A stretch of DNA of 23,018 bases from a virus: the IMG/VR virus record IMGVR_UViG_3300022865_000043, positions 1-23,018 of that record; one strand, 5' to 3'. Of this stretch, positions 649 to 16,806 are shown one piece after another. The notes under the pieces are model-generated. The model saw only the letters and a program-made list of their open reading frames with translations. It was not told where the DNA came from and did not search any database. Within the stretch, counting starts at the first letter, position 1. Every line of letters starts with the position of its first letter. A program made the translations under genes and the position numbers.

Positions 649-2067
649 TTAGTTAGTTTTTTTATTATTTTCTAAATCTTGAATCTTCTTATCTAAACCG
701 GGATATTTTTCTTGCCAACTATCTCCATCTAAAGGTTCTCCAGTTCCTGTTGTTGTAATATTTTTATCTTTATCAATTGGTATTTGTGAATTATAAAATC
801 TACTATATTCAGTTTTTCCACCCATATCTAAAGAAGCTTTAGCAGAAGCTATAGCAAAAGGAGAGAAGTCTGTAACATCTCCAGTGTATTTTTCATAATC
901 TGATTCAAAGCCTAATAATTTAGCTTCTTCATAAATTTGATCAGGAGAATAAGATGATTCTTTTAATATTTTATTTCTTAATTTAAGTGCGCCTTCAGTA
1001 TTAAATTCAGTATTAAAATCTCTATCACTTCCTTTTTTATAACCTCTATCTCTTTTAAATAATCTAGCATAAGCTATTTTTTCAGATTCAATTAAAGATA
1101 TAGCATCAGTAAAAACTATATTAGTAAGAAAAGTACTAGCTGCATCTGTTACTTGTGTTTGACCTGATCGTACTAAAGCAACATCTTTATCAGATACAGG
1201 AGTAAGTTTAGTATTAGATAAAGTATCTAAAGTTGCAACGGTAGCTAATTTATTAAAACTATTAATAAAATTAGCAGATGATTCTATACTTGAAAAAAAT
1301 TCACTATCTTGTCTCATGGTCTGTGGTAAAAGATCATTAATTGCTTGAATTGCTCCAGGGAATTTACTTCTTAAAGCACCAACAGGTAAAGATTTATTTT
1401 CAGGATTAGCAGTCCATGCTTTAATTAAATTTTTCTGAGATCCAAAAACTTGATTTAATTTAGTAGCACTTGCTATATCTTCCATTTGTTTATCTAAACC
1501 TTTATAAGCATCTAGTTCCATTGCACCTGGTTTATCTAATTCATTTGTAAGTTTTAACATATCTATTTGATTTTTTAATGAAGAAGCACCTGCTTTAGAT
1601 TTAGCAGTAGCAGCAGCTAGTTCTTCTGCTTTTACTTTTTTTACACCTCCACCTAAAGAACTTGTAACTATACCAAAAGGAGATTGTGCTCTACCTGAAG
1701 TAATAGGAGTGATCCGTGATGCTTTGTCAATCATATCAGTGCCTGCATAAAAAAGAGCACGTTTATTAGGATCCTCTAATACTTTTCCTATATTAGTTTC
1801 TAACTTAGCAGATATACTACTGAATGCACTTCCTATTGAATTTATTAAACTTTTCTTTTCTTTCTTTTCTGGAACTTCAATTTCTTTTTCTTTAAAAGCT
1901 TCTGTTAAAACCATACTTTCTAATTCATCATTATTAGGTAAAGCTTCTTTTGCATCAGTCATTTTTTCAAATTCTGCTGCTAAAGCTTGATCATCATTAA
2001 TGATATCTACTGAGATTTTATTTTCTTCATCACCTTTTTTAGGAAAACTGGAATCAAGTGCTGCCAT
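649..2067 (-). CDS. Putative internal/ejection virion protein, 472 aa, unknown family
   Basis: Hydrophilic, largely helical protein with no membrane segment or recognisable enzyme motif. Residues ~1-75 are acidic. Residues ~130-240 are rich in Ala, Lys and Leu, with a Gly-rich patch (SSLGGGVKK) and heptad-like stretches such as KNQIDMLKLTNELDK. The C-terminus is polar and ends in a charged helix. The start codon overlaps the preceding gene's stop by one base (TAATG), and a strong AAGGAGGT lies at 2071-2078 inside that gene, which fixes this start. Genes in this position, after the stopper-like and S74-domain genes of short-tailed phages, often encode proteins ejected with the DNA. That role is inferred from context and composition; I cannot name a family. 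Confidence 0.75.
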   Translation of the reverse strand: MAALDSSFPKKGDEENKISVDIINDDQALAAEFEKMTDAKEALPNNDELESMVLTEAFKEKEIEVPEKKEKKSLINSIGSAFSSISAKLETNIGKVLEDPNKRALFYAGTDMIDKASRITPITSGRAQSPFGIVTSSLGGGVKKVKAEELAAATAKSKAGASSLKNQIDMLKLTNELDKPGAMELDAYKGLDKQMEDIASATKLNQVFGSQKNLIKAWTANPENKSLPVGALRSKFPGAIQAINDLLPQTMRQDSEFFSSIESSANFINSFNKLATVATLDTLSNTKLTPVSDKDVALVRSGQTQVTDAASTFLTNIVFTDAISLIESEKIAYARLFKRDRGYKKGSDRDFNTEFNTEGALKLRNKILKESSYSPDQIYEEAKLLGFESDYEKYTGDVTDFSPFAIASAKASLDMGGKTEYSRFYNSQIPIDKDKNITTTGTGEPLDGDSWQEKYPGLDKKIQDLENNKKTN

Positions 2068-3098
2068 TAAACCTCCTTAAATTGTACATCAAGTTTATTG
2101 TAATCTACCATTAGATAACCATCATCGTTAACAGATGATACATGAGGAACTTGATGAGCCATTACGCCTTGATATTTTTTATCATTGCCTTTATATTTAA
2201 ATGTGTAAATATTAATTCCTGATGGAGATTTACCAACTAAATTAATATCTTCTTTTAATCTCATATCAGATAAAGCCATTCCTGTTGTTACAGCTCCAGC
2301 TATTTGACCAAAAGGACTTGCACCTTGTACTGGAACTCCAGTATATCCTGATCTTTCTTCTCCATAACTTCTTATAGGAGCACCTGATAAAGCACCAATC
2401 ATTTGTTTAACTTGTCCAGCACCATATTCTCTTTCTTCTATAAAGTCACGATATCCTTCTGCAAGTCCAGCTTGTTCTATACCACGAGCTTGCGCTCCAA
2501 ATCCAGCAAGTCCTGCTGAAGTTTGTCCTAAAGCATTTATTTGACTTTGTGCTGCGCCTAGTTGTGTTGCTCTATCTTGCATAAATCTATTAGCACCTGA
2601 TTCAAAACCAGCTTGTCTTAATCTAGCTGATGTATCTCCTGCACTATCTATAAATCTTTCTGCTCCTAAAACATTTTCTATACCTTGTCTTGATCCACCA
2701 AAAGCTCCTGCACCAATCGCTGAAGCATTCATTGATTTTTGAGTTTGACCGTAAGCTTCTCTTAAATCTCCTAAAGCTCCTGAAATAACTTGATTCTCAT
2801 ATGGGTTAGCATAAGCTTGAGCTGTAGCAGTGTCATAAGTTTGAGCACCTATTGCAGCAAGTTGTCCTGATTGTGGAAGAATTTGGTTTTGATATATATT
2901 AGCAGCTTGTGTTTCATAAGGATCAAGTTGAGCTATACGTTGACCTTGAAAACCTTGATATGGTTTACTAAATTCAGTTTCAGCTGTTCTTAAAGTTCTC
3001 TCTTGAATTTCTTTAAAATATTCAGGGATGTCATAGCTAGTCGTTGACTGCGATGGTGCCTGTACTGTTGTAACACTTGGTTTGAAAATACTACCCAT
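2067..3098 (-). CDS. Virion protein with C-terminal S74 self-cleaving chaperone domain
   Basis: The last ~70 residues look like the intramolecular chaperone/peptidase S74 domain known from endosialidase tailspikes. S277-D278-M-R-L-K282-E-D-I matches the SDxRLKxxI signature, whose Ser and Lys (five residues apart) form the self-cleaving dyad. It is followed by G-I-N-I-Y-T-F-K-Y and G-V-M-A-H-Q-V-P, also typical of the family. The preceding ~270 residues are Ala/Gly/Gln-rich and helical (ETEFSKPYQGFQGQRIAQLDPYE near the start) rather than a beta-helical fibre, as in many marine phage proteins labelled tail fibre domain-containing. It overlaps the upstream GNAT-like gene by 8 bp. The domain probably helps trimerisation and is then cleaved off. 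The job of the helical body, perhaps an ejected or tail-hub protein, is uncertain. Confidence 0.85.
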   Translation of the reverse strand: MGSIFKPSVTTVQAPSQSTTSYDIPEYFKEIQERTLRTAETEFSKPYQGFQGQRIAQLDPYETQAANIYQNQILPQSGQLAAIGAQTYDTATAQAYANPYENQVISGALGDLREAYGQTQKSMNASAIGAGAFGGSRQGIENVLGAERFIDSAGDTSARLRQAGFESGANRFMQDRATQLGAAQSQINALGQTSAGLAGFGAQARGIEQAGLAEGYRDFIEEREYGAGQVKQMIGALSGAPIRSYGEERSGYTGVPVQGASPFGQIAGAVTTGMALSDMRLKEDINLVGKSPSGINIYTFKYKGNDKKYQGVMAHQVPHVSSVNDDGYLMVDYNKLDVQFKEV

Positions 3099-3546
3099 TG
3101 ACTATATAAGTTCCTCCAATAACTTTAAATCCTAATTTAATAAAAGCCTTGTCTTTTCTTTCAACGTCTTTACCTTGAAAGATTTCGCATATCGCAGTTA
3201 CTTTATTTGCTAGTGCGTATTCTTTGAAAACTATCATTATAGAACGAAAGATCCTAAAATTTCTATGTTTAGGATTCACGTGTAACCATAAAGTTCTCAT
3301 GAACTTTTTGTCACTATACCATGTCTCATCAACTGTTGCAGCTAATGTTCCTATAATAATATTTTCATATTCCACTACTATAACAAAACTATTCTTAATG
3401 TAAAATACTATATTCTCTAAAGCTTTAGTATTATTAGTGTTTCCAAAGTTGAATGGAGCCTCTGTAAGCCACGTTTTTAGTAGTTCTCTTATACGAACAG
3501 CATCAGATATTCGAGCTGGTCTTATAGTATATTTATCTTTTTCCAT
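3091..3546 (-). CDS. GNAT-like N-acetyltransferase domain protein
   Basis: A 151-aa protein with the outline of a GNAT fold: N-terminal Y-T-I-R-P-A-R-I-S-D-A (residues 6-16), a central strand V-I-V-V-E-Y-E-N-I-I-I-G-T-L (55-68), motif A strand L-W-L-H-V-N-P-K-H-R (86-95), and a C-terminal F-I-K-L-G-F-K (135-141) typical of motif B. The acetyl-CoA pyrophosphate loop, usually R-G-x-G-x-G/A, reads R-N-F-R-I-F here, so cofactor binding may be altered or lost. It overlaps both neighbours (8 bp downstream, 14 bp upstream), so it belongs to the virion operon. GNAT-like proteins occur among tail and internal-protein genes of many short-tailed phages, where their substrate is unknown. It could be an active acetyltransferase or a structural derivative of the fold. 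Confidence 0.7.
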   Translation of the reverse strand: MEKDKYTIRPARISDAVRIRELLKTWLTEAPFNFGNTNNTKALENIVFYIKNSFVIVVEYENIIIGTLAATVDETWYSDKKFMRTLWLHVNPKHRNFRIFRSIMIVFKEYALANKVTAICEIFQGKDVERKDKAFIKLGFKVIGGTYIVNG

Positions 3547-5377
3547 CTTGTTTTATATTTACTCTTAATGTACCAAATCTCCAGTTATCTCCAACATTAT
3601 TATTTTGTATCTTAACATTAGATTGTCTACCACGAATACGTGTATTAACGAACCTAGTTGTGTTGTTTACAGTCAAAGTTTCTCCTACTGTTGCAGTATC
3701 ATTAGGATAATCTTTAACACTTAAAGTGATTACAGTGTTTCCAGTTTGATCTTGAAAGTCTGGTATAACTTTATTAATAAAACTAAATGTTTCACCATCA
3801 GCAATGTCTCCATCACCTGATTGAATATAAGCTGGTAAAGCAGATCCATCAGCATCTACTCCTGATTCTTGAGCATATATTAAACTTCTACCTTGAGTTA
3901 ATCCATTAATAGTAGTTATAGTACTTGCGTTAGAAGTAGATAAATACTCTGTAGCTAAAGGATTAAAATTAACTCCGTTATCTTGATAAGTACTTCTATC
4001 CATAGTTCCAAAATACCAAGAGTTTTCTAAATAATTATAAATAACATAACGATCACATTGACTAGCGGTACTTGAACAGTAATACCATATTACTTCTGAA
4101 AACTCTGAATTTTGTGCAGCATAAACTTGAACATACTGAACTTTATTAATATCTTGAAATACATGATTTAATATAGGACAAGGTATCTCCTGAACTGATC
4201 CAGCATATCTAAAGAATTGTCCATCTGACATCCAGTAAGCTATATCATCTATAACTATTGCAGAGTTAAGACCAACAGCTCCACAATCATTACCTAATTG
4301 TCTAAAACCAAATATAAAAGGAGGACCTATAAAAGACATTGATTGTAATGTAGTATCTGTCCATATTAATATAGTTCCTTTAGCAGGTCTTGCACATCTT
4401 ATTTCACTTCCACCAGCTATTTTTTGTGATCCTGCAGAGTTAGTTACATTAGGTGTCCATTGATTATAATTTTCTTGATCAGACCAACGTATAAACATCC
4501 TATCTTGACTTGAAGTATCTCCAATAGTTGTTTCTGTTCCTAAACATACTACATGTCTAGTTTCTGTAGATACTAAAGATAATGTAGAGCTAGTAGGAGC
4601 ATTAGCAATAGATGTAGCTCTATTAGTAGACATTCCTGCTGAAGTATTCCATTCGTAAGTTGCTCCATCTTTTTGAGTTAATATTAAATCTTCTCCCCAA
4701 TTATTAATAGACCATAACCGTGCATCAAGTACTACACTAGAAGTTGCTCTAGGTGTTCCCCAAGTAGAAGCACCCCAAGTAGAAGCACCCCAACCGTATC
4801 CAAAAGTTTGAATAGATGGACCTACATTTATTTGATAAGTAGTTGTGCAATTTGCAGTAGGACCTACCGCAGAAGTTGCTGTTGCACTACTTTCAACAGT
4901 ATAAGTATTAATAGTTGGTACACTTAAAATTTCATATTCAGCATCTAGTGTGGCTGCAGGAATTCCACCAACGTCAGTACTTACACTACTTAGTGTGACA
5001 AAATCACCTAATATAGCTCCATGACTTGTATCCGTGATAGTTATAATATTGCTACTTGATGTTGTAGTAATAGCATTAACAAGAGCATTGTTTGCTCTTA
5101 TAGGAGTAATGTCTTGATTATCTCCACCTTGATATACATACACTTTACGATCAGTTCCTAAAGCTTCATAACGAGATCCGTCTAAAGAATACCATTGTTC
5201 TAAAGCTCTTCCAACTCCTACATAATATTCTGGACTAAATTTAGTCCAGCCACCTATTTTTTGAGGAAGTCCTTTACGAAATCTTATTTTATCTCCATCA
5301 ATCCACCTACCTTCTGCTCCTGTAGGAGTATTCTCAGTATCTAATCCAGGTTGAAAGTTTAATTGAGTTAATGGCAT
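3533..5377 (-). CDS. Stopper/tail-hub-like virion protein (P22 gp10-like role)
   Basis: A 614-aa, beta-rich protein. Its N-terminus (P-L-T-Q-L-N-F-Q-P-G-L-D then R-W-I-D-G-D-K-I-R-F-R-K-G-L-P-Q-K-I-G-G-W) is a pattern I remember from marine phage structural proteins. By size and position it resembles packaged-DNA-stabilising/stopper proteins such as P22 gp10. Many short strands and aromatic W-Y/W-S motifs suggest a propeller-like core. Residues 193-208 contain a W-G-A-S-T repeat, encoded by a perfect 15-bp tandem duplication. It is the first minus-strand gene left of the inverted oxygenase island, so it probably needs its own promoter: a TATAAT at 5386-5391 sits 8 nt before the ATG, with no Shine-Dalgarno. 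The virion role is likely; exact assignment as stopper, nozzle or hub is uncertain. Confidence 0.75.
   Translation of the reverse strand: MPLTQLNFQPGLDTENTPTGAEGRWIDGDKIRFRKGLPQKIGGWTKFSPEYYVGVGRALEQWYSLDGSRYEALGTDRKVYVYQGGDNQDITPIRANNALVNAITTTSSSNIITITDTSHGAILGDFVTLSSVSTDVGGIPAATLDAEYEILSVPTINTYTVESSATATSAVGPTANCTTTYQINVGPSIQTFGYGWGASTWGASTWGTPRATSSVVLDARLWSINNWGEDLILTQKDGATYEWNTSAGMSTNRATSIANAPTSSTLSLVSTETRHVVCLGTETTIGDTSSQDRMFIRWSDQENYNQWTPNVTNSAGSQKIAGGSEIRCARPAKGTILIWTDTTLQSMSFIGPPFIFGFRQLGNDCGAVGLNSAIVIDDIAYWMSDGQFFRYAGSVQEIPCPILNHVFQDINKVQYVQVYAAQNSEFSEVIWYYCSSTASQCDRYVIYNYLENSWYFGTMDRSTYQDNGVNFNPLATEYLSTSNASTITTINGLTQGRSLIYAQESGVDADGSALPAYIQSGDGDIADGETFSFINKVIPDFQDQTGNTVITLSVKDYPNDTATVGETLTVNNTTRFVNTRIRGRQSNVKIQNNNVGDNWRFGTLRVNIKQDGKR
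4758..4787 (-). repeat. 15-bp perfect tandem duplication inside the stopper-like gene
   Basis: The plus-strand unit CCCCAAGTAGAAGCA occurs twice back to back, followed by a partial CCCCAA. It keeps frame and encodes the W-G-A-S-T W-G-A-S-T segment, which continues into W-G-T-P. A recent in-frame slippage or duplication is the simplest explanation. Confidence 0.9.
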
Positions 5378-5478
5378 AGTTTTGTATTATACAGTAAAAT
5401 TACAAAATATATACTATATTTTATAGCATATAATGCCTTATATAGTAATTATATAGATAATGAAAGAAACAAAATGAT
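5378..5478. promoter_or_regulatory. Divergent intergenic region with inverted repeat and -10-like boxes
   Basis: These 101 bp separate the minus-strand stopper-like gene from the plus-strand oxygenase island and must serve at least one of them. A perfect 8-bp inverted repeat, TACTATAT (5412-5419) and ATATAGTA (5440-5447), flanks a plus-strand TATAAT at 5429-5434. No convincing -35 box sits upstream. On the minus strand TATAAT lies at 5386-5391, 8 nt before the ATG at 5377. The arrangement would suit an operator-controlled bidirectional promoter. The region is extremely AT-rich, so chance -10 matches are expected. Confidence 0.4.
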
Positions 5479-6015
5479 ATGAAAACAGTAGTACTAGATA
5501 ACTTATTTTCTAAAAAAGAATTATTTTATATGTATAAAGAAATAATAAAAACTCCAAATTGGAGAATAGATGGGCAGTCTACAGACCAAGATGGACATAT
5601 AAGTGGGCCTGTTTTTGTGGTTAAACAAATTAATGAAAAACCTCAAAATTATCCTTTGTTTTTGTGGGGGCAAACTTTAGTTTTTAGAATTAATAAATTA
5701 TTAGAAGAAAAAAATATAGGTATTCCAACTAAATTAAATAGAATGTGGTTTAATTCTACTTCTCATGGTAAAAAAACACAACATTGGCTTCATGCTGATG
5801 ATGAAGATAATTTAAAATTAAAATCAATTTTGTTGTTTATGACTCCTATTTGGCAACCAGATTGGAGAGGATCATTTTATATTGATGGAGAAGAATTTAA
5901 ATTTAAACCTGGCTCTGCTGTTATTTTTGATTCTAAAGAATACCATAAAGGGGAATCACCTGAATCAGAAACATATAATTGGCAAAGAATAACATGTAAT
6001 ATTTTAGTAGGATAA
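5479..6015 (+). CDS. 2OG-Fe(II) oxygenase-like protein 1
   Basis: First gene of the plus-strand island, 178 aa. It fits the double-stranded beta-helix 2-oxoglutarate/Fe(II) oxygenases: H105-A-D107 as the first two metal ligands, H156 (E-Y-H-K-G-E) as the distal ligand, and R170 (W-Q-R-I-T) placed to bind the 2OG carboxylate. Between them, F-K-F-K-P-G-S-A-V-I-F-D is the usual loop and strand before the distal His. Such enzymes couple oxidative decarboxylation of 2OG to hydroxylation or demethylation of a substrate, which cannot be predicted here. The N-terminus (V-V-L-D-N-L-F-S-K-K-E-L) resembles those of the fourth and fifth island genes, suggesting common ancestry. No strong Shine-Dalgarno is seen. 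The next gene starts 1 bp after its stop. Confidence 0.8.
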   Translation: MKTVVLDNLFSKKELFYMYKEIIKTPNWRIDGQSTDQDGHISGPVFVVKQINEKPQNYPLFLWGQTLVFRINKLLEEKNIGIPTKLNRMWFNSTSHGKKTQHWLHADDEDNLKLKSILLFMTPIWQPDWRGSFYIDGEEFKFKPGSAVIFDSKEYHKGESPESETYNWQRITCNILVG

Positions 6016-6016
6016 A

Positions 6017-6562
6017 ATGGATCATTTAGAAGCAATTGTCGAGATAAAAAATGTAGTCTCCACAGAGTTTATAGATAAAATCATACCTTTAATAAATCAT
6101 AAAGCTAAAAAAAATTTAAAAGTTATGGGAGGTTTGGATAAAAATATAAGAAATGTAAAAGGTCATCAGTTAACTTTTAATACACCTACAGATTTATTCT
6201 ATTGGAACTATATAAAACAAGAAATAGAAAGACTTTATACTTATTATAAAATAAAATTTCCTAAGATGATGAGCTCTAAAATCAATCAAATAGATTTATT
6301 AAAATATTCACCAGGGGGAAAATATGAAATACACACAGATCATTTTACTACTTCTATTAGAGCTTTAAGTGTTATTATTAATTTAAATAATGATTATGAA
6401 GGGGGAGATTTAATTTTTACTGATCAAAAAGAAAAAGAAATTAAAAGATTAAAACTTGGAAAAGGTTCAATTGTATTTTTTCCAAGTAATTTTATGTACC
6501 CTCATGGTATTCAACCTATTACGAAAGGAACAAGATACAGTATAGTAGCATGGCTACAATAA
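6017..6562 (+). CDS. 2OG-Fe(II) oxygenase, prolyl-4-hydroxylase-like (PKHD-type)
   Basis: The clearest oxygenase of the island, 181 aa. It has L-L-K-Y-S-P-G-G-K-Y-E-I-H106-T-D108, the Y-x-x-H-x-D core of prolyl-4-hydroxylase-type enzymes. N-Y-E/D-Y-E-G-G-D-L-I-F (125-134) is the conserved G-G-x-L-x-F strand. The distal site is Y-P-H163-G-I-Q-P-I-T-K-G-T-R173-Y-S, with R173 as the likely 2OG-binding arginine. The length suits a stand-alone catalytic domain without an accessory region. Known relatives hydroxylate protein side chains or small molecules, so a phage tail or host surface protein is a possible target. Its end overlaps the next gene's longest reading frame by 13 bp. Confidence 0.9.
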   Translation: MDHLEAIVEIKNVVSTEFIDKIIPLINHKAKKNLKVMGGLDKNIRNVKGHQLTFNTPTDLFYWNYIKQEIERLYTYYKIKFPKMMSSKINQIDLLKYSPGGKYEIHTDHFTTSIRALSVIINLNNDYEGGDLIFTDQKEKEIKRLKLGKGSIVFFPSNFMYPHGIQPITKGTRYSIVAWLQ

Positions 6563-7095
6563 AACTTATGAACAAAAAAACACTTAATATATTATCTATT
6601 GATTGTGATTGGATAACAAATTCTAAACAACAAGAAGAACTTTTAAGTTTTCTTATACCTATAATATATAATAATAAAGATATACATACTGCATACTCAC
6701 ACGAAAAAATATATCCTTTGTTTTCTCATGGTTATGATGAGTACAATTTAATTAATATTGATCATCATCATGATTTTCATTATAATCAAAATTTAAATAT
6801 TTTAAACGAAGGAAATTGGTTGTTTCATTTATCTAATGTATTCAAAAACAAAATTAATTATACTTGGATATCTAACCCTCATTCTAGTTATCTTGAATTA
6901 ATGGAATTTAAAAATTTAAAATCATTTGTTTTTGATCATAATATTAATTATATAAAACAAAAAAAGTTTGATAAAATATTTATATGTTGTAGCCCTGAAT
7001 TTGCTGTTACACCTGAAGTTATTACAGCATACAAAATTATAGAAAGAATTGTTAATGAACGAAAAAACATAGAGCATGACTACAATAAAAACTAA
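6550..7095 (+). CDS. Arginase-fold/UPF0489-like metallohydrolase candidate
   Basis: A 181-aa protein in the midst of the oxygenase genes but unrelated to them. It opens with I-L-S-I-D18-C-D20-W and has N-I-D71-H-H-H-D75-F-H77, then G-N-W-L-F-H-L and a later F-I-C-C-S-P-E-F-A-V-T-P strand. An early Asp strand, a D-x-H-x-D-like metal cluster and a late S-P/D-P strand resemble the arginase/UPF0489 superfamily. From memory, similar uncharacterised proteins occur in marine T4-like phages. Substrate and activity are unknown, and the fold assignment is tentative. The longest frame starts at 6550. The internal ATG at 6568, 5 bp after the preceding stop and seven codons in, is an equally good start because neither has a clear ribosome-binding site. 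It overlaps the next gene by 20 bp. Confidence 0.7.
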   Translation: MATIKLMNKKTLNILSIDCDWITNSKQQEELLSFLIPIIYNNKDIHTAYSHEKIYPLFSHGYDEYNLINIDHHHDFHYNQNLNILNEGNWLFHLSNVFKNKINYTWISNPHSSYLELMEFKNLKSFVFDHNINYIKQKKFDKIFICCSPEFAVTPEVITAYKIIERIVNERKNIEHDYNKN

Positions 7096-7609
7096 AATAA
7101 TAAAAAATTTTTTCGATAAAAAAGAATTACAGATTCTTCATAAATATTGCCATAACAAATTAGATTCAAATAAAGACTATCAATTAGATAGTCAATCATT
7201 TTCACCCGCATGGTACAATGATCCTTTAATGACAAGTTTTTTAGATACGAAATTACCTTTAGTAGAAAAAGAAAGTAATCTACAATTATTTCAAACTTAT
7301 GCTTATTGGAGATATTATGTATTAGGTGCAACTTTAAAACAACATAGAGATAGACCAGCTTGTGAAATAAGTGTAACTGCTTGTATTAAAAAATATGATA
7401 ACTGGCCTTTAGTTATAGAAGGTGAAACATTTGAATTAGAAGAAGGTGATGCACTTTTATATGCTGGTTGTGAACAAAAACATGGAAGACCTGGAGTATA
7501 TAAAGGAGAGGGTATGGCTCAAGTATTCTTTCATTATGTAAATAAAAATGGTCAATATACTAATCATGCTTATGATAATTATATTAAAACAACAGGAAGA
7601 AAAATATGA
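7076..7609 (+). CDS. 2OG-Fe(II) oxygenase-like protein 3
   Basis: A 177-aa protein with L-K-Q-H90-R-D92-R-P as the proximal metal pair, E-G-D-A-L-L-Y-A-G as the strand leading to the distal site, and Q-K-H136-G-R-P-G as the third ligand. No arginine lies at the usual spacing after H136. K143 or a residue in M-A-Q-V-F-F-H-Y-V (147-155) may bind the co-substrate instead, so the 2OG site is less standard than in its neighbours. The N-terminus K-I-I-K-N-F-F-D-K-K-E-L matches the pattern of the first and fifth island genes. It overlaps the preceding gene by 20 bp and the following gene by 4 bp, so these genes are very likely co-translated. Function beyond the oxygenase fold is unknown. Confidence 0.78.
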   Translation: MTTIKTKIIKNFFDKKELQILHKYCHNKLDSNKDYQLDSQSFSPAWYNDPLMTSFLDTKLPLVEKESNLQLFQTYAYWRYYVLGATLKQHRDRPACEISVTACIKKYDNWPLVIEGETFELEEGDALLYAGCEQKHGRPGVYKGEGMAQVFFHYVNKNGQYTNHAYDNYIKTTGRKI

Positions 7610-8154
7610 CAAAAATAATTGAAAAAATAGAAAAAATGACAAAAAATAAACTCGAATTAAAAATAATTGACAACTTTTTTTCACAAGATGAATTAAATAT
7701 TTTAACAAATAATCTTACAAGAATACCTTATATCCCTTTAAAAGATCATTATGGTAAAGGAAATCATTTTGGAATGATCCATGACTTTAAAAAAAATACA
7801 ACAAACCAATGGTTATTTGATAAAATTAAAAAAAATTTTTTTCCTAATATCAATCTTATAGATGTAGAATCAAGATTTACAGTTAGACATAATAAATCTA
7901 AAGTTTTAGCACACGTAGATGACAAGGATTATAATTTTATAGCTTACCTTAAAGGAAAAGAATTAGTTTATAATGGTACTGGTTTTTATCACAATAAAAA
8001 CTTAAATACCTATGTTGGATTTGTCGTAAATAGAGCTATTTTTTTTGACGGTCTAAATAATCATCATACCGATCTTCAAGCTTTAGGAGAAAGTTCAATG
8101 AGATATACATTAAATGTATTTTATGATAAAAGGAGAAATAAAAATGAAAAATAA
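7606..8154 (+). CDS. 2OG-Fe(II) oxygenase-like protein 4
   Basis: A 182-aa protein with V-L-A-H103-V-D105-D as the proximal pair, N-N-H153-H154-T-D as the distal His site (either His could bind), and R166 (S-M-R-Y-T-L-N-V-F-Y) as the likely 2OG-binding arginine. The middle segment V-G-F-V-V-N-R-A-I-F-F-D-G takes the place of the usual strand before the distal His. K-I-I-D-N-F-F-S-Q-D-E-L (19-30) again resembles genes one and four of the island, here after a ~16-residue Lys-rich extension. The ATG overlaps the preceding stop (ATGA) with GGAAG just upstream, which supports this start; an internal ATG at codon 11 is less likely. The substrate is unknown. Confidence 0.75.
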   Translation: MTKIIEKIEKMTKNKLELKIIDNFFSQDELNILTNNLTRIPYIPLKDHYGKGNHFGMIHDFKKNTTNQWLFDKIKKNFFPNINLIDVESRFTVRHNKSKVLAHVDDKDYNFIAYLKGKELVYNGTGFYHNKNLNTYVGFVVNRAIFFDGLNNHHTDLQALGESSMRYTLNVFYDKRRNKNEK

Positions 8155-8758
8155 AAATGCAAAAATAGAAAATTTTATAGGTGTTTATGACAATTATATA
8201 ACCCCTGAAGAATGCAAGGGTCTTATAAAAGTTTTCGAAGATTATTCTAAATTTAATGAAACATTAAATAGAAGACAATGTAATGTAGATTGGCATGTAG
8301 CAAAAGATGAACAATTTTTTTATCACCCTAAAAATGTAAATGTTCATTGGAGTTCATTTAAACAAACAGTTTTTAACTTTGATATTGCTTTTAAACATTA
8401 TCTTGTTAACACTGGAGCTGATTATATGTTATCTGATAAGACCCCTACAGAATATTTTTTTACACAGTTAAAGATACAAAAAACTAAACCAACTGAAGGC
8501 TACCATGTTTGGCATCAAGAACAAGGAAGTACATATGAAACACTTCCAAGAGCTTTTGCTTGGACTGTATATTTAAATGATATTAATGAAGGAGGAGAAA
8601 CAGAATTTCTACATTTTTCAAAAAGAGTAAAACCTAAAACAGGTAGAATAGTTATATGGCCTGCGGGTTTTCCATATTTTCATAGAGGAAATCCTCCTTT
8701 AAAAGGAGAGAAATATATTTTAACATCTTGGATGTTACTTAATAATATTATGGGTTAA
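8144..8758 (+). CDS. 2OG-Fe(II) oxygenase-like protein 5, HxE metal site
   Basis: The start is set at ATG 8144 because AAAAGGAG lies 8 bp upstream; a longer frame from 8114 would add ten residues inside the preceding gene. The 204-aa product has G-Y-H-V-W-H124-Q-E126-Q-G, D-I-N-E-G-G-E-T-E-F-L (147-157), P-K-T-G-R-I-V-I-W-P, and the distal Y-F-H180-R-G-N-P. K190 (G-E-K-Y-I-L-T-S-W) may bind 2OG. This is the prolyl-hydroxylase-like layout, but with Glu in place of the usual Asp in the metal triad, a variant known in some 2OG enzymes. It is the last and longest island gene. Its stop lies 4 bp from the stop of the convergent minus-strand gene, with no terminator between them. Confidence 0.85.
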   Translation: MKNKNAKIENFIGVYDNYITPEECKGLIKVFEDYSKFNETLNRRQCNVDWHVAKDEQFFYHPKNVNVHWSSFKQTVFNFDIAFKHYLVNTGADYMLSDKTPTEYFFTQLKIQKTKPTEGYHVWHQEQGSTYETLPRAFAWTVYLNDINEGGETEFLHFSKRVKPKTGRIVIWPAGFPYFHRGNPPLKGEKYILTSWMLLNNIMG

Positions 8759-8762
8759 AATT

Positions 8763-9155
8763 TTATGATGAATAAGATGTAGGTCTTGCACCTAATCTTG
8801 TAATTTTTTCAGATTCAGTTTCAGTAGAATTACCATCTTCATCTACTACATTGTCATTATCCCAATCAAATTGTAATTGAGTTAAATGCGCTGAATCCCA
8901 TTTATTGCTAAATTGATTAATGTCTCCTAAGTTTGCATCTGCAAATGATGAATGAGGTGTTGTATCTCTATATTCTACTTCGTCAGAAGAATTTGAACTA
9001 CCGTGTTGAATAGCCCAAATATTAGAGAATTTAGAATCAGACCAGAACGAATCATCATTAATAACATATCCAATACCTTCTGAAGCACCTTCATCATGGT
9101 TTTTAATAATGCATTTGTCTTCAAATACTACTGTCCAATTTGCGTTAGTTGCCAT
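8763..9155 (-). CDS. Small tail-region protein, unknown family
   Basis: A 130-aa acidic, polar protein with no membrane segment. The N-terminus N-A-N-W-T-V-V-F-E-D-K is followed by D-D-S-F-W-S and F-S-N-I-W-A-I-Q-H-G. The C-terminal third is rich in Asp, Asn and Glu (F-D-W-D-N-D-N-V-V-D-E-D-G-N). From memory, similar short proteins accompany tail-fibre genes in marine phages, but no function is known to me. A clear AGGAG precedes the ATG. It is the last gene of the right-hand minus-strand block before the inverted oxygenase island and converges with it. It could be a small fibre-tip, chaperone-like or baseplate accessory protein; position is the only evidence. Confidence 0.7.
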   Translation of the reverse strand: MATNANWTVVFEDKCIIKNHDEGASEGIGYVINDDSFWSDSKFSNIWAIQHGSSNSSDEVEYRDTTPHSSFADANLGDINQFSNKWDSAHLTQLQFDWDNDNVVDEDGNSTETESEKITRLGARPTSYSS

Positions 9156-9163
9156 TTTTTCTC

Positions 9164-9754
9164 CTAAGTTTTTATAATATAAATTAAAGTTAAATAAGGT
9201 TGTAATACAGATGGGTTTGCTGTGTTTCCAGAAAAAGTAGCACTCATATTATGAGAGTGACCACCACCTGACCCTGAACTACTTGTGTTTTGATTAATAG
9301 TAGGTCCATTATTTGTTTGGGCTGATATTCTAGGGCTGCTACCAAAAGAAGCAGGTGGTTGCCCACTAATAGAGTGTGAGTGTGATGCAAGTTGAGGTGT
9401 TGATAAAGTAGCATTTGCTGTTGAACCACCTACGTTTCCTGAAGCAGTAACGGGTGCAGTATTTGCTCCACCCGTTGATGCTAAAGCTTTAGTTCCAGAT
9501 TTTCCTACTGGTGTATTGTCTTGTAAATCAGGTGTATTAAAAGTAGTGGATCCATCTCCTGCACCGTAAGTAGTACTTATAATTGCAAATAATGCTGAAT
9601 AAGTTGTTCTTGAAACTGCTACACCATCACATTCTAAAAATCCAGAGGGAACTGATGCTGAAGACCATGGAACAATAGTTGCTGTTGGAATACCTTCTAT
9701 ACCTGTAAGGTTTGCTCCATCAAAATCATATTTAGTTGCTTCGTAATTTGCCAT
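9164..9754 (-). CDS. Tail-collar domain fibre-tip protein
   Basis: A 196-aa protein with a phage tail-collar domain at residues ~22-80: I-V-P-W-S-S-A-S-V-P-S-G-F-L-E-C-D-G then Y-S-A-L-F-A-I-I-S-T-T-Y-G-A-G-D-G-S-T and F-N-T-P-D-L, the standard signature. The Gly/Ser/Thr-rich second half carries two H-x-H motifs, H125-S-H127 and G-H166-S-H168-N, like the metal-binding histidines that hold the T4 short tail fibre (gp12) trimer together. It ends L-Q-P-Y-L-T-L-I-Y-I-I-K, another family hallmark. It is probably a trimeric receptor-binding tip or short fibre. GGAG precedes the ATG, and its stop (TAG) lies by the Shine-Dalgarno of the next gene. Confidence 0.92.
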   Translation of the reverse strand: MANYEATKYDFDGANLTGIEGIPTATIVPWSSASVPSGFLECDGVAVSRTTYSALFAIISTTYGAGDGSTTFNTPDLQDNTPVGKSGTKALASTGGANTAPVTASGNVGGSTANATLSTPQLASHSHSISGQPPASFGSSPRISAQTNNGPTINQNTSSSGSGGGHSHNMSATFSGNTANPSVLQPYLTLIYIIKT

Positions 9755-11918: not shown

Positions 11919-12578
11919 TTATTGTCCTCCAGTTAATGTGTTTGTACCAACAGGGCTACCTGGAAACTTAAAGTCTGTTCTTCTTCTTCTACGGGCTTCA
12001 TTGTTAACAGTAGCAACTCTTGTATTATACAAATTTGTATATATAGTATAATCTTCTATGTTCTTTGTAAAGAGATTTGCTTGAGCTAAACAACCAAATA
12101 ATAAAACATCTGAAATATTTTCAGTATACCAGTTGGTAGTATTAGTATTAGATAATGGGTTAATTTTTCCTTGATATCCTAGTTTTAAAGTATAAGCTTG
12201 ATCTGGAGTAGGTGCTAAATATACTCGATCATCATCAAAATTAGAAAAATATTTAGGTTGACTTTGAAGAGAAGAATCAGGCCAATATTCTTGACAAAAA
12301 GCTAAAGTTTTTAATTCTAAATAACTTACATTAGAGCCTACTGTAATAGTTAAATAATTAAATAACATAGGCTCGATAGAAGTAGGAAGATTTACAAATC
12401 TATCTCCAGCTACTGCTGTAGTAGTTACGTTTTCATTAAATCCAATAGGGTCTATATCTCTTGATAAAGAATCAAAAGTATTATCTATAAAAGTATCTAA
12501 TTGATTAGTAAAATCAGTTCCTGTATTTTCAGCCCATGTTTGTATATCAGTCTTTAGACTGTCGTATGTCATTGCCAT
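11919..12578 (-). CDS. Head-tail adaptor protein (SU10-type/T7 gp11-like)
   Basis: A 219-aa protein matching the general layout of phage adaptor proteins of the SU10/T7 gp11 kind. It has an N-terminal helical segment (L-K-T-D-I-Q-T-W-A-E-N, F-I-D-N-T-F-D-S-L-S-R-D-I), a central beta part (R-F-V-N-L-P, Y-L-T-I-T-V-G) with L-E-L-K-T-L-A-F-C-Q-E-Y-W-P, then V-Y-L-A-P-T-P-D-Q-A-Y-T-L-K-L-G-Y and a C-terminal helix ending in five arginines. These rings bind the portal and form the tail-attachment platform. The start at 12578 lies 32 bp inside the glycosyltransferase gene. No strong Shine-Dalgarno precedes it, and the ATG two codons later is an alternative. Confidence 0.8.
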   Translation of the reverse strand: MAMTYDSLKTDIQTWAENTGTDFTNQLDTFIDNTFDSLSRDIDPIGFNENVTTTAVAGDRFVNLPTSIEPMLFNYLTITVGSNVSYLELKTLAFCQEYWPDSSLQSQPKYFSNFDDDRVYLAPTPDQAYTLKLGYQGKINPLSNTNTTNWYTENISDVLLFGCLAQANLFTKNIEDYTIYTNLYNTRVATVNNEARRRRRTDFKFPGSPVGTNTLTGGQ

Positions 12579-13359
12579 CTTTAATTACCTCATCAACTTT
12601 AAATTTAGTCCAAACGTGTCCTGCAAATGGATAAGTTCCATAGTGCGTTAAAGGACTTTGAAGATCAGCATGTATCTTACCACCTATTTTTTGCCATAAT
12701 CTACAAAAAGCATAATCCTCTGATAGATATCTATTACTTTTTTCATCAATAATACAGTCAAAAAATGCATAACAATTGTCACTACCATATCTTTTTCCAT
12801 TAACTATTTGATCGCTAGTATATTTAAGATTAGAATAAGCTTCTTTCATCTGATAAAAAACTTCTTTTTTAATACACATAAAACCTGTTGCAGCATCCAT
12901 TACTTCAGTAAAACCACCAGTTAATTCAATTTTATTAGGATCTGCAAAATTTAAATTATAACCTAAAGCTCTTTGTTCTAAATTTTTATCACTTGTTTTA
13001 ATTAAGTCAGGAATTTTATCCCATTCAATAGCTTTTCTAGGATATATTCCACAAGCTATATCATAACCTGATTCTAAAACACGTCTTACAGCTTCTCCTC
13101 TAAATCCTATATCAGCATCAATAAACATTAAATGAGTAAGACTATCATCTTCTTTATCCATATCTAAAAACTGACTGACAATAGTATTTCTAGCTCTTGT
13201 GATTAAACTTTCATTACCAATAGTATTCAATTGAACTTGAAAATTATTTTGAGAAGCTACTCTCGTTAAATCCATTATTCCATGTAGATAAGCTTCTGTT
13301 AATTGACCACCATAACAAGGTGTTCCAATCATTACTTTTAATTTTTTATTTTTTATCAT
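12547..13359 (-). CDS. Putative GT-A family glycosyltransferase
   Basis: A 270-aa protein with the pattern of GT2/Anp1-like GT-A glycosyltransferases. It has an N-terminal strand V-M-I-G-T-P-C-Y-G-G (9-18), a helix with I-T-R-A-R-N (53-58), then H-L-M-F-I-D81-A-D83-I-G-F, the DxD-type metal and nucleotide-sugar site. Next come A-C-G-I-Y-P-R-K, M-D-A-A-T-G-F-M-C-I-K-K, a late S-E-D-Y-A-F-C acidic motif that could hold the catalytic base, and T-H-Y-G near the C-terminus, where a metal-binding His is often found. It overlaps genes on both sides (ATGA with the 149-aa gene, 32 bp with the adaptor), so it is a fixed part of the connector operon. It may glycosylate a virion protein or a host surface component. 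Confidence 0.85.
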   Translation of the reverse strand: MIKNKKLKVMIGTPCYGGQLTEAYLHGIMDLTRVASQNNFQVQLNTIGNESLITRARNTIVSQFLDMDKEDDSLTHLMFIDADIGFRGEAVRRVLESGYDIACGIYPRKAIEWDKIPDLIKTSDKNLEQRALGYNLNFADPNKIELTGGFTEVMDAATGFMCIKKEVFYQMKEAYSNLKYTSDQIVNGKRYGSDNCYAFFDCIIDEKSNRYLSEDYAFCRLWQKIGGKIHADLQSPLTHYGTYPFAGHVWTKFKVDEVIKDGNDIRQSKD

Positions 13360-15897: not shown

Positions 15898-16806
15898 TTA
15901 TGCTACGCCTTCAGATCCGTATACACCTCTCCAGTCTGTAAAACCGAAGCTGTATCTTTCTCTGCACTTGTATCTTAAATTACCAGTTTCAAAATCGCCT
16001 TCAACAGCTTTTTTGATTGGTGATCTAACGAAGTGTTTCATTCCATCTGGGCAATCAGTTAGGATAAAATACTGATCAGGGTTAGTAAATCTTTGATTTA
16101 CTACTACACCTTCAGGTATCATACCCATATTTCTCATTGCATTGATATCATTGTCAGCAGTACCAGGTCTTAAATTAGACTTGATAATTCTTTCTGCAAC
16201 GAACACCAATTGAGGTGGAACTGCAAGTTTTCTTCCTGATAACGCAACAGGTATGCTTCTATCATCTACAGCAGTTGAGATTTGAACTAAAAGTGTCTCT
16301 AAAGACGTTTCAGATAAATCCGCAGGTGTGCCTAGGATGTTAGATGCAGTACCACCGCCACCAAGTGGGTGAGAGCCGTTCATTAAAGCTACGCCGTCTC
16401 CTCCAGTTGAAGTAGTAGTTGCATTATTAAAGATATTTGCACCTTTGATCTCTTTAGTTTGTTGCATTGATCTTGCTAGTGCTCTTGCGTATTTAGCGCC
16501 TAGAGAACCGTACAAGCCATCTTCTTCAGCTTCTTCTGTAATCGCAAAAGCTAAAGCGACAGTTTCATGCACATATCTTGAGACAAAGCCTTCTCTGCCA
16601 GAATCATAATTGATCATGGCACCTTCTGCTTTAGTTGGTGCAGCACCGAATCCGATCATTTGTACATCTTCTTCGAATGCTTTCATTGATTGCTCTGTAG
16701 AATATAATGATCTCCATTGCTCAGGATATCTATCATATTCCATACCAAACACGGTGTTTAAACCTAGATTGAGCTGTTTGGTAAAAAGTGCTCTGTTTAA
16801 AGCCAT
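15898..16806 (-). CDS. Major capsid protein, HK97 fold
   Basis: A 302-aa protein and the best capsid candidate of the window. It lies downstream of the scaffold-like and decoration-like genes and is noticeably less AT-rich than most neighbours. Features include N-R-A-L-F-T-K-Q-L-N-L-G-L-N-T-V-F-G at the N-terminus, Y-D-S-G-R-E-G-F-V-S-R-Y-V-H-E-T (a strand region), L-A-R-S-M-Q-Q-T-K-E-I-K-G-A-N-I-F-N-N, G-S-H-P-L-G-G-G-G, the P-P-Q-L-V-F-V-A-E-R-I-I strand, and the terminal R-E-R-Y-S-F-G-F-T-D-W-R-G-V-Y-G-S, typical of Mu gpT-related capsids. AGGAG lies 9 bp before the ATG. A strong terminator-like hairpin follows directly, which fits high expression of this gene group. Confidence 0.93.
   Translation of the reverse strand: MALNRALFTKQLNLGLNTVFGMEYDRYPEQWRSLYSTEQSMKAFEEDVQMIGFGAAPTKAEGAMINYDSGREGFVSRYVHETVALAFAITEEAEEDGLYGSLGAKYARALARSMQQTKEIKGANIFNNATTTSTGGDGVALMNGSHPLGGGGTASNILGTPADLSETSLETLLVQISTAVDDRSIPVALSGRKLAVPPQLVFVAERIIKSNLRPGTADNDINAMRNMGMIPEGVVVNQRFTNPDQYFILTDCPDGMKHFVRSPIKKAVEGDFETGNLRYKCRERYSFGFTDWRGVYGSEGVA

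Follow-up and report, generated by a model that had tools for sequence, protein, structure and literature searches.

A fixed site among the late genes of HTVC027P-type pelagiphages holds one constant and many exchangeable 2-oxoglutarate/Fe(II) oxygenase genes

Why would a phage pack five iron-dependent oxygenase genes into its late operon, on the opposite strand? The question arises from a 23,018-base virus record (IMG/VR IMGVR_UViG_3300022865_000043; hereafter the window, analysed at its full length), a fragment of an HTVC027P-like pelagiphage. Six open reading frames (ORFs) of 177–214 residues run head to tail on its plus strand at 5479–8758, within a minus-strand late operon: P0001 (5479–6015), P0002 (6017–6562), P0003 (6550–7095), P0004 (7076–7609), P0005 (7606–8154) and P0006 (8114–8758). 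Adjoining ORFs abut or overlap, and the last stops 4 bases short of the end of the convergent gene P0008; the minus-strand genes on either side occupy 5377–3533 and 9155–8763. A previous sequence-only reading had called five of the six genes 2-oxoglutarate (2OG)-Fe(II) oxygenase-like, which ORFs, motifs and families confirm. The island's GC content is 25.6% and that of the remaining window 33.1%; the local counts given earlier (11 G/C in 6781–6840 and 21 in 15961–16020) are exact. That the surrounding genes are on the minus strand also stands; that all are virion genes does not, since an acetyltransferase-like gene lies at 3091–3546.

To place the island among its relatives, we fetched loci by four routes: the left-flank gene, the core oxygenase, P0003 and the tail-collar gene P0009, the last a route not chosen for oxygenases. 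All 61 distinct islands selected through P0009 hold at least one oxygenase; they contain 1–9 genes each, and 88% of their gene content is of the 2OG or JmjC type. Because every P0009-selected locus resembles the window's tail-collar protein at no less than 68% identity, the count of 61/61 holds for the window's lineage, not for pelagiphages as a whole. All routes together gave 123 distinct islands, encoding 387 proteins at 90% non-redundancy in 36 clusters. The isolate HTVC027P has three antisense genes (gp74, gp73, gp72) at the equivalent site, between the same flanks. Late-gene order and homologous virion proteins shared with this isolate (identity 69% for P0009, 74% for P0008 and only 39% for P0007) group the window with the HTVC023P/HTVC027P-type pelagiphages. 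The island is thus a real module, as had been supposed, with oxygenase arrays at the equivalent site in 61 of 61 relatives and in HTVC027P. Chance assembly or an assembly artefact is excluded, its probability vanishingly small, because 123 distinct loci, and the isolate too, have the island at one and the same site.

What is constant at this site is a single gene. The six-gene order, which the sequence-only reading proposed to seek in other phages, is not conserved: islands have little of their content in common (mean Jaccard 0.21–0.27), and only the P0006-type gene persists. The large cluster matching the Pfam family 2OG-FeII_Oxy_3 (PF13640) divides into 79 proteins with HxE...H...K and 68 with HxD...H...R, mixed pairs occurring in none of the 147; one HxD/R member carries Tyr in place of the distal His. 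Exactly one copy of the HxE/K gene is present in 122 of the 123 distinct islands (the exception is locus L171). It is the gene present in single-gene islands, and it stands last or second-last in 85 of the 115 islands that have it on the plus strand; P0006 is the window's copy. Clavaminate-synthase-like enzymes also have HxE ligands, so such a site need not be dead. These observations show a fixed, fast-turning-over site beside the tail-fibre genes, comprising one constant HxE/K oxygenase and exchangeable other genes. Mobile-element genes and long flanking repeats were looked for at the island and none were found.

Five of the island proteins have the iron triad of 2OG-Fe(II) oxygenases, nearly invariant within each family, in the proportions noted before: four HxD...H sites (P0001, H105-x-D107...H156; P0002, H106-x-D108...H163; P0004, H90-x-D92...H136; P0005, H103-x-D105...H154) and one HxE...H (P0006, H134-x-E136...H190). 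The triad is conserved in 37/37 members of the P0004 family, 37/37 of the P0005 family and 146/147 of the family joining P0002 and P0006; H105, H156 and R170 are unchanged in 12/12 members of the P0001 family, and H103, D105, H154 and R166 in all 37 of the P0005 family. An Arg or Lys about 10–14 residues past the distal His, the 2OG-binding position, occurs in P0001 (R170), P0002 (R173), P0005 (R166) and P0006 (K200). Only P0002 (E 8.5e-18) and P0006 (E 1e-10) pass the Pfam cut-off for PF13640; P0001 falls below it (E 9e-4), and a Pfam search of P0003, P0004 and P0005 gave no match. PHROG assigns P0002 (E 1.6e-32) and P0006 to phrog_61, a 2OG oxygenase family, P0001 (E 2.6e-14) and P0005 (E 2.7e-11) to phrog_274 ("DNA endonuclease V"), and P0004 (E 2.6e-41) to phrog_2954 ("ferrochelatase").

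Profile-profile comparison with hhalign links the P0001 family (94.5%) and the P0005 family (93.7%) to the PF13640 family of P0002 and P0006, while control profiles of three flank proteins show no such link to the oxygenase families. The double-stranded beta-helix fold is reached along different lines: through a structural model and fold search for P0004, through PF13640 for P0002 and P0006, and only through profile-profile links for P0001 and P0005, which we call putative 2OG-Fe(II) oxygenases on the strength of those links and their triads. P0006, a core enzyme resembling prolyl 4-hydroxylase (P4H), is the orthologue of HTVC027P gp73 (61% identical). It probably starts at 8144 rather than where its ORF opens at 8114, because homologues begin there and AAGGAG precedes that ATG; the start of P0005 may be 7636.

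The label "DNA endonuclease V" looks doubtful for P0001 and P0005: no endonuclease profile was found in either protein, in the P-SSM2 "denV" or in the Mosig homologue. The P-SSM2 protein keeps HxD...H and has a sub-threshold PF13640 match (E 0.0014), and the PHROG 274 family is probably a 2OG oxygenase family too. An anti-defence reading of the island was also set aside, PADLOC matching only its generic 2OG "CRISPR-associated" profile.

P0004 raises the same problem of labelling in sharper form. We modelled it with AlphaFold2 from 36 aligned homologues (mean predicted local distance difference test score, pLDDT, 92.7; predicted template modelling score 0.89) and searched the PDB with Foldseek. 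The best matches were the putative oxygenase 3dkq (E 6e-8), Pseudomonas putida P4H alone or with EF-Tu (4j25, 4iw3), PHD2 and a viral collagen hydroxylase. Structure prediction, which had been proposed as a check, thus returns a prolyl-hydroxylase-like fold with the metal triad. H90, D92, H136 and R138 are unchanged across the island P0004 family and the annotated "ferrochelatases" of S-CAM8, Mosig EXVC030M, HTVC033P and S-H9-2, and a Pfam ferrochelatase match, sought in P0004 and those four proteins, was found in none. The predicted beta-helix fold, the invariant HxD...H and the missing Pfam match lead us to reject a ferrochelatase identity for P0004. Its family profile links to the P0005 (74.8%) and P0001 (52.4%) families and to no others; in PDB sequence searches, neither P0004 by itself nor profiles built for P0003 and P0004 gave a useful match. 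Because the fold model and motifs of P0004 say so, we read the PHROG 2954 family, P0004 included, as itself a predicted 2OG-type oxygenase, its use of 2OG being putative.

This relabelling would reach beyond one island. A cyanophage hypothetical protein with a ferrochelatase domain is already on record (PMC3037559), every ferrochelatase-encoding phage among the HTVC023P-type pelagiphages was reported to have a 2OG oxygenase adjacent (PMC9599517), and phrog2954 was taken as ferrochelatase in a seasonal-enrichment analysis (PMC11561400). Published pelagiphage ecology (PMC9599517, PMC11561400) leans on the pairing of "ferrochelatase" with 2OG oxygenase. Should PHROG 2954 prove to be a 2OG oxygenase, that pairing is largely oxygenase beside oxygenase, and heme and iron readings need reconsidering.

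The sixth protein, P0003, is a conserved D/H-rich alpha/beta protein and a putative metalloenzyme, whose start may be 6568. Its 13 aligned homologues have SIDCDW and NIDHHHDF in common, with the invariant motifs SxDxDW and NIDxHHDF, and a family search gave no match. Its AlphaFold2 model (pLDDT 82) found no significant fold match in the PDB and a single match in BFVD, an uncharacterised S-RSM4 protein. Homologues occur in two clostridial contigs from metagenome-assembled genomes, and one relative weakly resembles UPF0489 (E 0.0028, below the cut-off). Ureohydrolase, considered as an identity, was not confirmed by the PDB and BFVD fold searches or a genome scan, and the earlier "metallohydrolase" is not established: the family is conserved and D/H-rich, but has no Pfam or significant PDB match. 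In several relatives (among them L163–L170; for example L163:7276–7779) a P0003 homologue lies outside the island, past the 3' end of the P0007 homologue and co-directional with it. That position is a second variable slot, occupied in the window by the acetyltransferase-like gene.

How is the island expressed, and does its antisense orientation matter? The divergent spacer at its left edge (5378–5478, plus strand) holds a conserved leader, GCATATAATGCCTTATATA...AATGAAAG, a candidate promoter and ribosome-binding region. The consensus of 49 distinct relatives is TTTTGTAGCATATA.T...TTATATAttA.TTtT.tA.A.AATGAAAG, matched once in the window and once in HTVC027P (57,175 bases examined), each time at the left edge of the island; in most relatives, the TTTTGTAGCAT part is where the neighbour gene starts. 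The leader probably carries the island's promoter, and a generic sigma-70 promoter scan was not above background (32 against 29.6 in shuffled sequence). Terminator-like hairpins are in excess at 5200–9300 (9 found, 1.3 expected from shuffles); several are on the minus strand within the island and could block late-operon read-through.

Orientation itself differs between two lineages. Genes are antisense by 429 to 21 in lineage A and sense by 127 to 14 in lineage B, whose left-flank gene is 79–90% identical to the window's and is preceded upstream by arrays of the same oxygenase families. These sense arrays are part of the late operon, with the same flank on one side and a tail protein on the other, and none of the lineage B arrays has the HxE/K core gene. 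Because lineage B carries these genes sense, antisense orientation is not essential, and we dropped it as a functional signature. Upstream of the P0007 homologue in loci L005–L082, the sense arrays also hold halogenase-like and carbamoyltransferase genes. The window itself combines the two: its P0007 is 79–90% identical to lineage B loci and about 40% identical to most island-bearing relatives, and its island is of the first lineage. Since the spacer also retains a remnant, ATAGCATATAATGCC, resembling the old gene start, this arrangement suggests that recombination joined the two at the island's left edge.

Relatives' islands also carry genes outside the 2OG superfamily. Their Pfam matches include Carbam_trans_N, Trp_halogenase, Sulfotransfer_2, APS_kinase, TylF and Methyltransf_23/24; a ParB-like protein is likewise among them, and some islands encode JmjC_2 proteins. 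APS kinase occurs in two islands, each of which also has a sulfotransferase. Hydroxylation followed by capping of the new hydroxyl would be a coherent reading of this set. The earlier suggestion of a multi-step pathway or one enzyme per substrate is compatible with the sulfotransferase, APS kinase, carbamoyltransferase, methyltransferase and halogenase of relatives.

Combining these observations, we tentatively propose, at somewhat less than even confidence, that the oxygenases hydroxylate a virion or surface substrate and that transferases sometimes cap the products. During infection the enzymes would take host 2-oxoglutarate, O2 and Fe(II) and add hydroxyls to side chains or small groups, either of a virion component made by the phage (most likely tail fibre or collar) or of the host surface. 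Transferases in some phages would then put sulfate, carbamate or methyl groups on the new hydroxyls. The core enzyme would act on a substrate common to all these phages, and exchange of accessory enzymes would yield differing phage surface chemistries, selected by receptors and competitors. We look to the virion or surface because the arrays adjoin tail genes in two lineages, sense in one of them, and have transferase partners; in the cyanophage S-RIM12, a homologue lies between the major head and tail completion genes. A more specific version, which we think unlikely, is a modular locus for chemical diversification of the virion, in which an HxE/Lys hydroxylase common to all would mark a conserved tail component, to be decorated further by exchangeable oxygenases together with sulfo-, carbamoyl-, methyl- and halogenating enzymes. 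If so, related pelagiphages would differ in tail chemistry and not in protein sequence alone.

Several points weigh against a virion or surface target. Co-evolution with the flanking tail gene, tried as a pointer to the target, gave only weak correlations between island content and adjacent tail proteins (Mantel r 0.09–0.32); because r is at most 0.32, the neighbouring tail proteins need not be the targets. P0004 is without Arg or Lys at the usual 2OG-binding position and has the invariant arginines R79, R93 and R138 instead. Elsewhere, ribosomal proteins and EF-Tu are substrates of JmjC_2 and P4H relatives, which makes the host's translation proteins possible targets as well. With the island antisense in this lineage, its transcription is separate from that of the late operon and late timing does not follow, and the HTVC027P transcriptome article, as far as its text goes, gives no timing for gp72–74 (PMC12753301).

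Some of these points feed the idea that the enzymes hydroxylate host proteins such as translation factors or ribosomal proteins, thereby reprogramming the SAR11 cell. The P4H solved with EF-Tu among the Foldseek matches of P0004, the JmjC_2 proteins of some islands and a short conserved divergent leader suggesting expression apart from the late operon all fit it. The site, however, adjoins tail genes in two lineages, in one of them in the sense direction, and sulfo-, carbamoyl- and methyltransferases and a halogenase are not known to partner ribosome hydroxylation; we consider host reprogramming doubtful.

Modification or repair of DNA or nucleotides could be argued from the PHROG "DNA endonuclease (V)" labels on related proteins, a weak match of P0002 to the Oxygenase-NA profile (E 2e-4, below the cut-off) and the DNA hypermodification genes of some clades of this phage type (PMC9599517). 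It is improbable: those hypermodification genes adjoin polA, away from the island site, the "endonuclease V" proteins themselves look like 2OG oxygenases, and the best structural matches of P0004 are prolyl-hydroxylase-like. Burning or sensing of 2-oxoglutarate, altering host nitrogen or carbon metabolism, was proposed for cyanophages with several 2OG oxygenases (PMC3037559); such draw-down would need neither many oxygenases of diverse sequence and their transferase partners nor a constant core and variable set at a tail-gene site, which makes it decidedly improbable here. The published annotation would have a ferrochelatase and iron oxygenases act jointly as a heme or iron module, in keeping with the PHROG 2954 label and its recorded co-occurrence with 2OG oxygenases (PMC9599517, PMC11561400), but the modelled beta-helix and invariant HxD...H of P0004, along with the lack of a Pfam ferrochelatase match in it and in the four annotated proteins, render this highly improbable. 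The invariant core with exchangeable accessories presents one clear target for learning what these phage oxygenases modify. Pelagiphages infect the most abundant ocean bacteria, and the isolate HTVC027P (gp72–74) is cultivable on HTCC1062.

The genes flanking the island, P0007, P0008 and P0009, are on the minus strand. On the left flank, P0007 (3533–5377) is a virion structural protein (phrog_3287, E 3.5e-84). On the right, P0008 (8763–9155) is a conserved tail-region protein with no PHROG match, homologous to HTVC027P gp71, and P0009 (9164–9754) is a tail collar or fibre-tip protein (tail collar matches to phrog_9116 and phrog_19618) with two HxH motifs, HSHS and HSHN. HxH motifs resemble the iron-binding tips of T4-type fibres. 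Those of P0009 may be linked to the "Ferrojan Horse" idea cited in PMC12753301. By eye, the end of an ejection-protein-like ORF at 2067–3098 (DMRLKEDI...) resembles the peptidase S74 self-cleaving chaperone domain, and a late-operon ORF of 270 residues at 12547–13359 looks glycosyltransferase-like, with no Pfam match.

How does the island compare with known systems? P0004 shares with ferrochelatase a database label only (PHROG 2954), differing in fold and active site. It is like the prolyl 4-hydroxylases (P. putida P4H, PHD2, viral vCPH) in predicted fold and Fe-binding triad, at a sequence identity of only about 10–20%, and the core P0006 has HxE and Lys where those enzymes have HxD and Arg. 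The hyperplastic region of cyanomyoviruses is likewise a fixed site between structural genes that gathers variable accessory genes; it belongs to another phage group and collects mixed metabolic genes, whereas the island draws mainly on one superfamily. The term itself appears in PMC2984593. T4-like cyanophages have homologous phrog_61 oxygenases, several per genome (PMC3037559). Those of S-RIM12 stand singly among head and recombination genes, with no fixed antisense array seen; in S-CAM8, genes for carbamoyltransferase, 2OG oxygenase, "ferrochelatase" and two further 2OG oxygenases lie within about 5 kb. Clusters in S-CAM8 and Mosig EXVC030M (L262, L263) have members of the same oxygenase and carbamoyltransferase families. 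Such cyanomyophage and pelagimyophage clusters suggest exchange between unrelated marine phages.

That pelagiphages and cyanophages can be rich in oxygenases was already known. What appears new is the fixed site, the invariant HxE/K core gene and the reclassification of PHROG 2954: no account of them was found in the literature searched, which did not include most subscription papers or supplementary files. The closest precedent concerns the same phage group: HTVC023P-type pelagiphages were described with eight non-orthologous 2OG oxygenases co-located and one or two "ferrochelatases" beside them, the oxygenases called nearby, not adjacent, and the partner read as ferrochelatase (PMC9599517). 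Here, by contrast, a single tandem array occupies a single site, and the supposed ferrochelatase is a predicted oxygenase in its own right; the array has an invariant core gene and shares its site with transferases and a halogenase.

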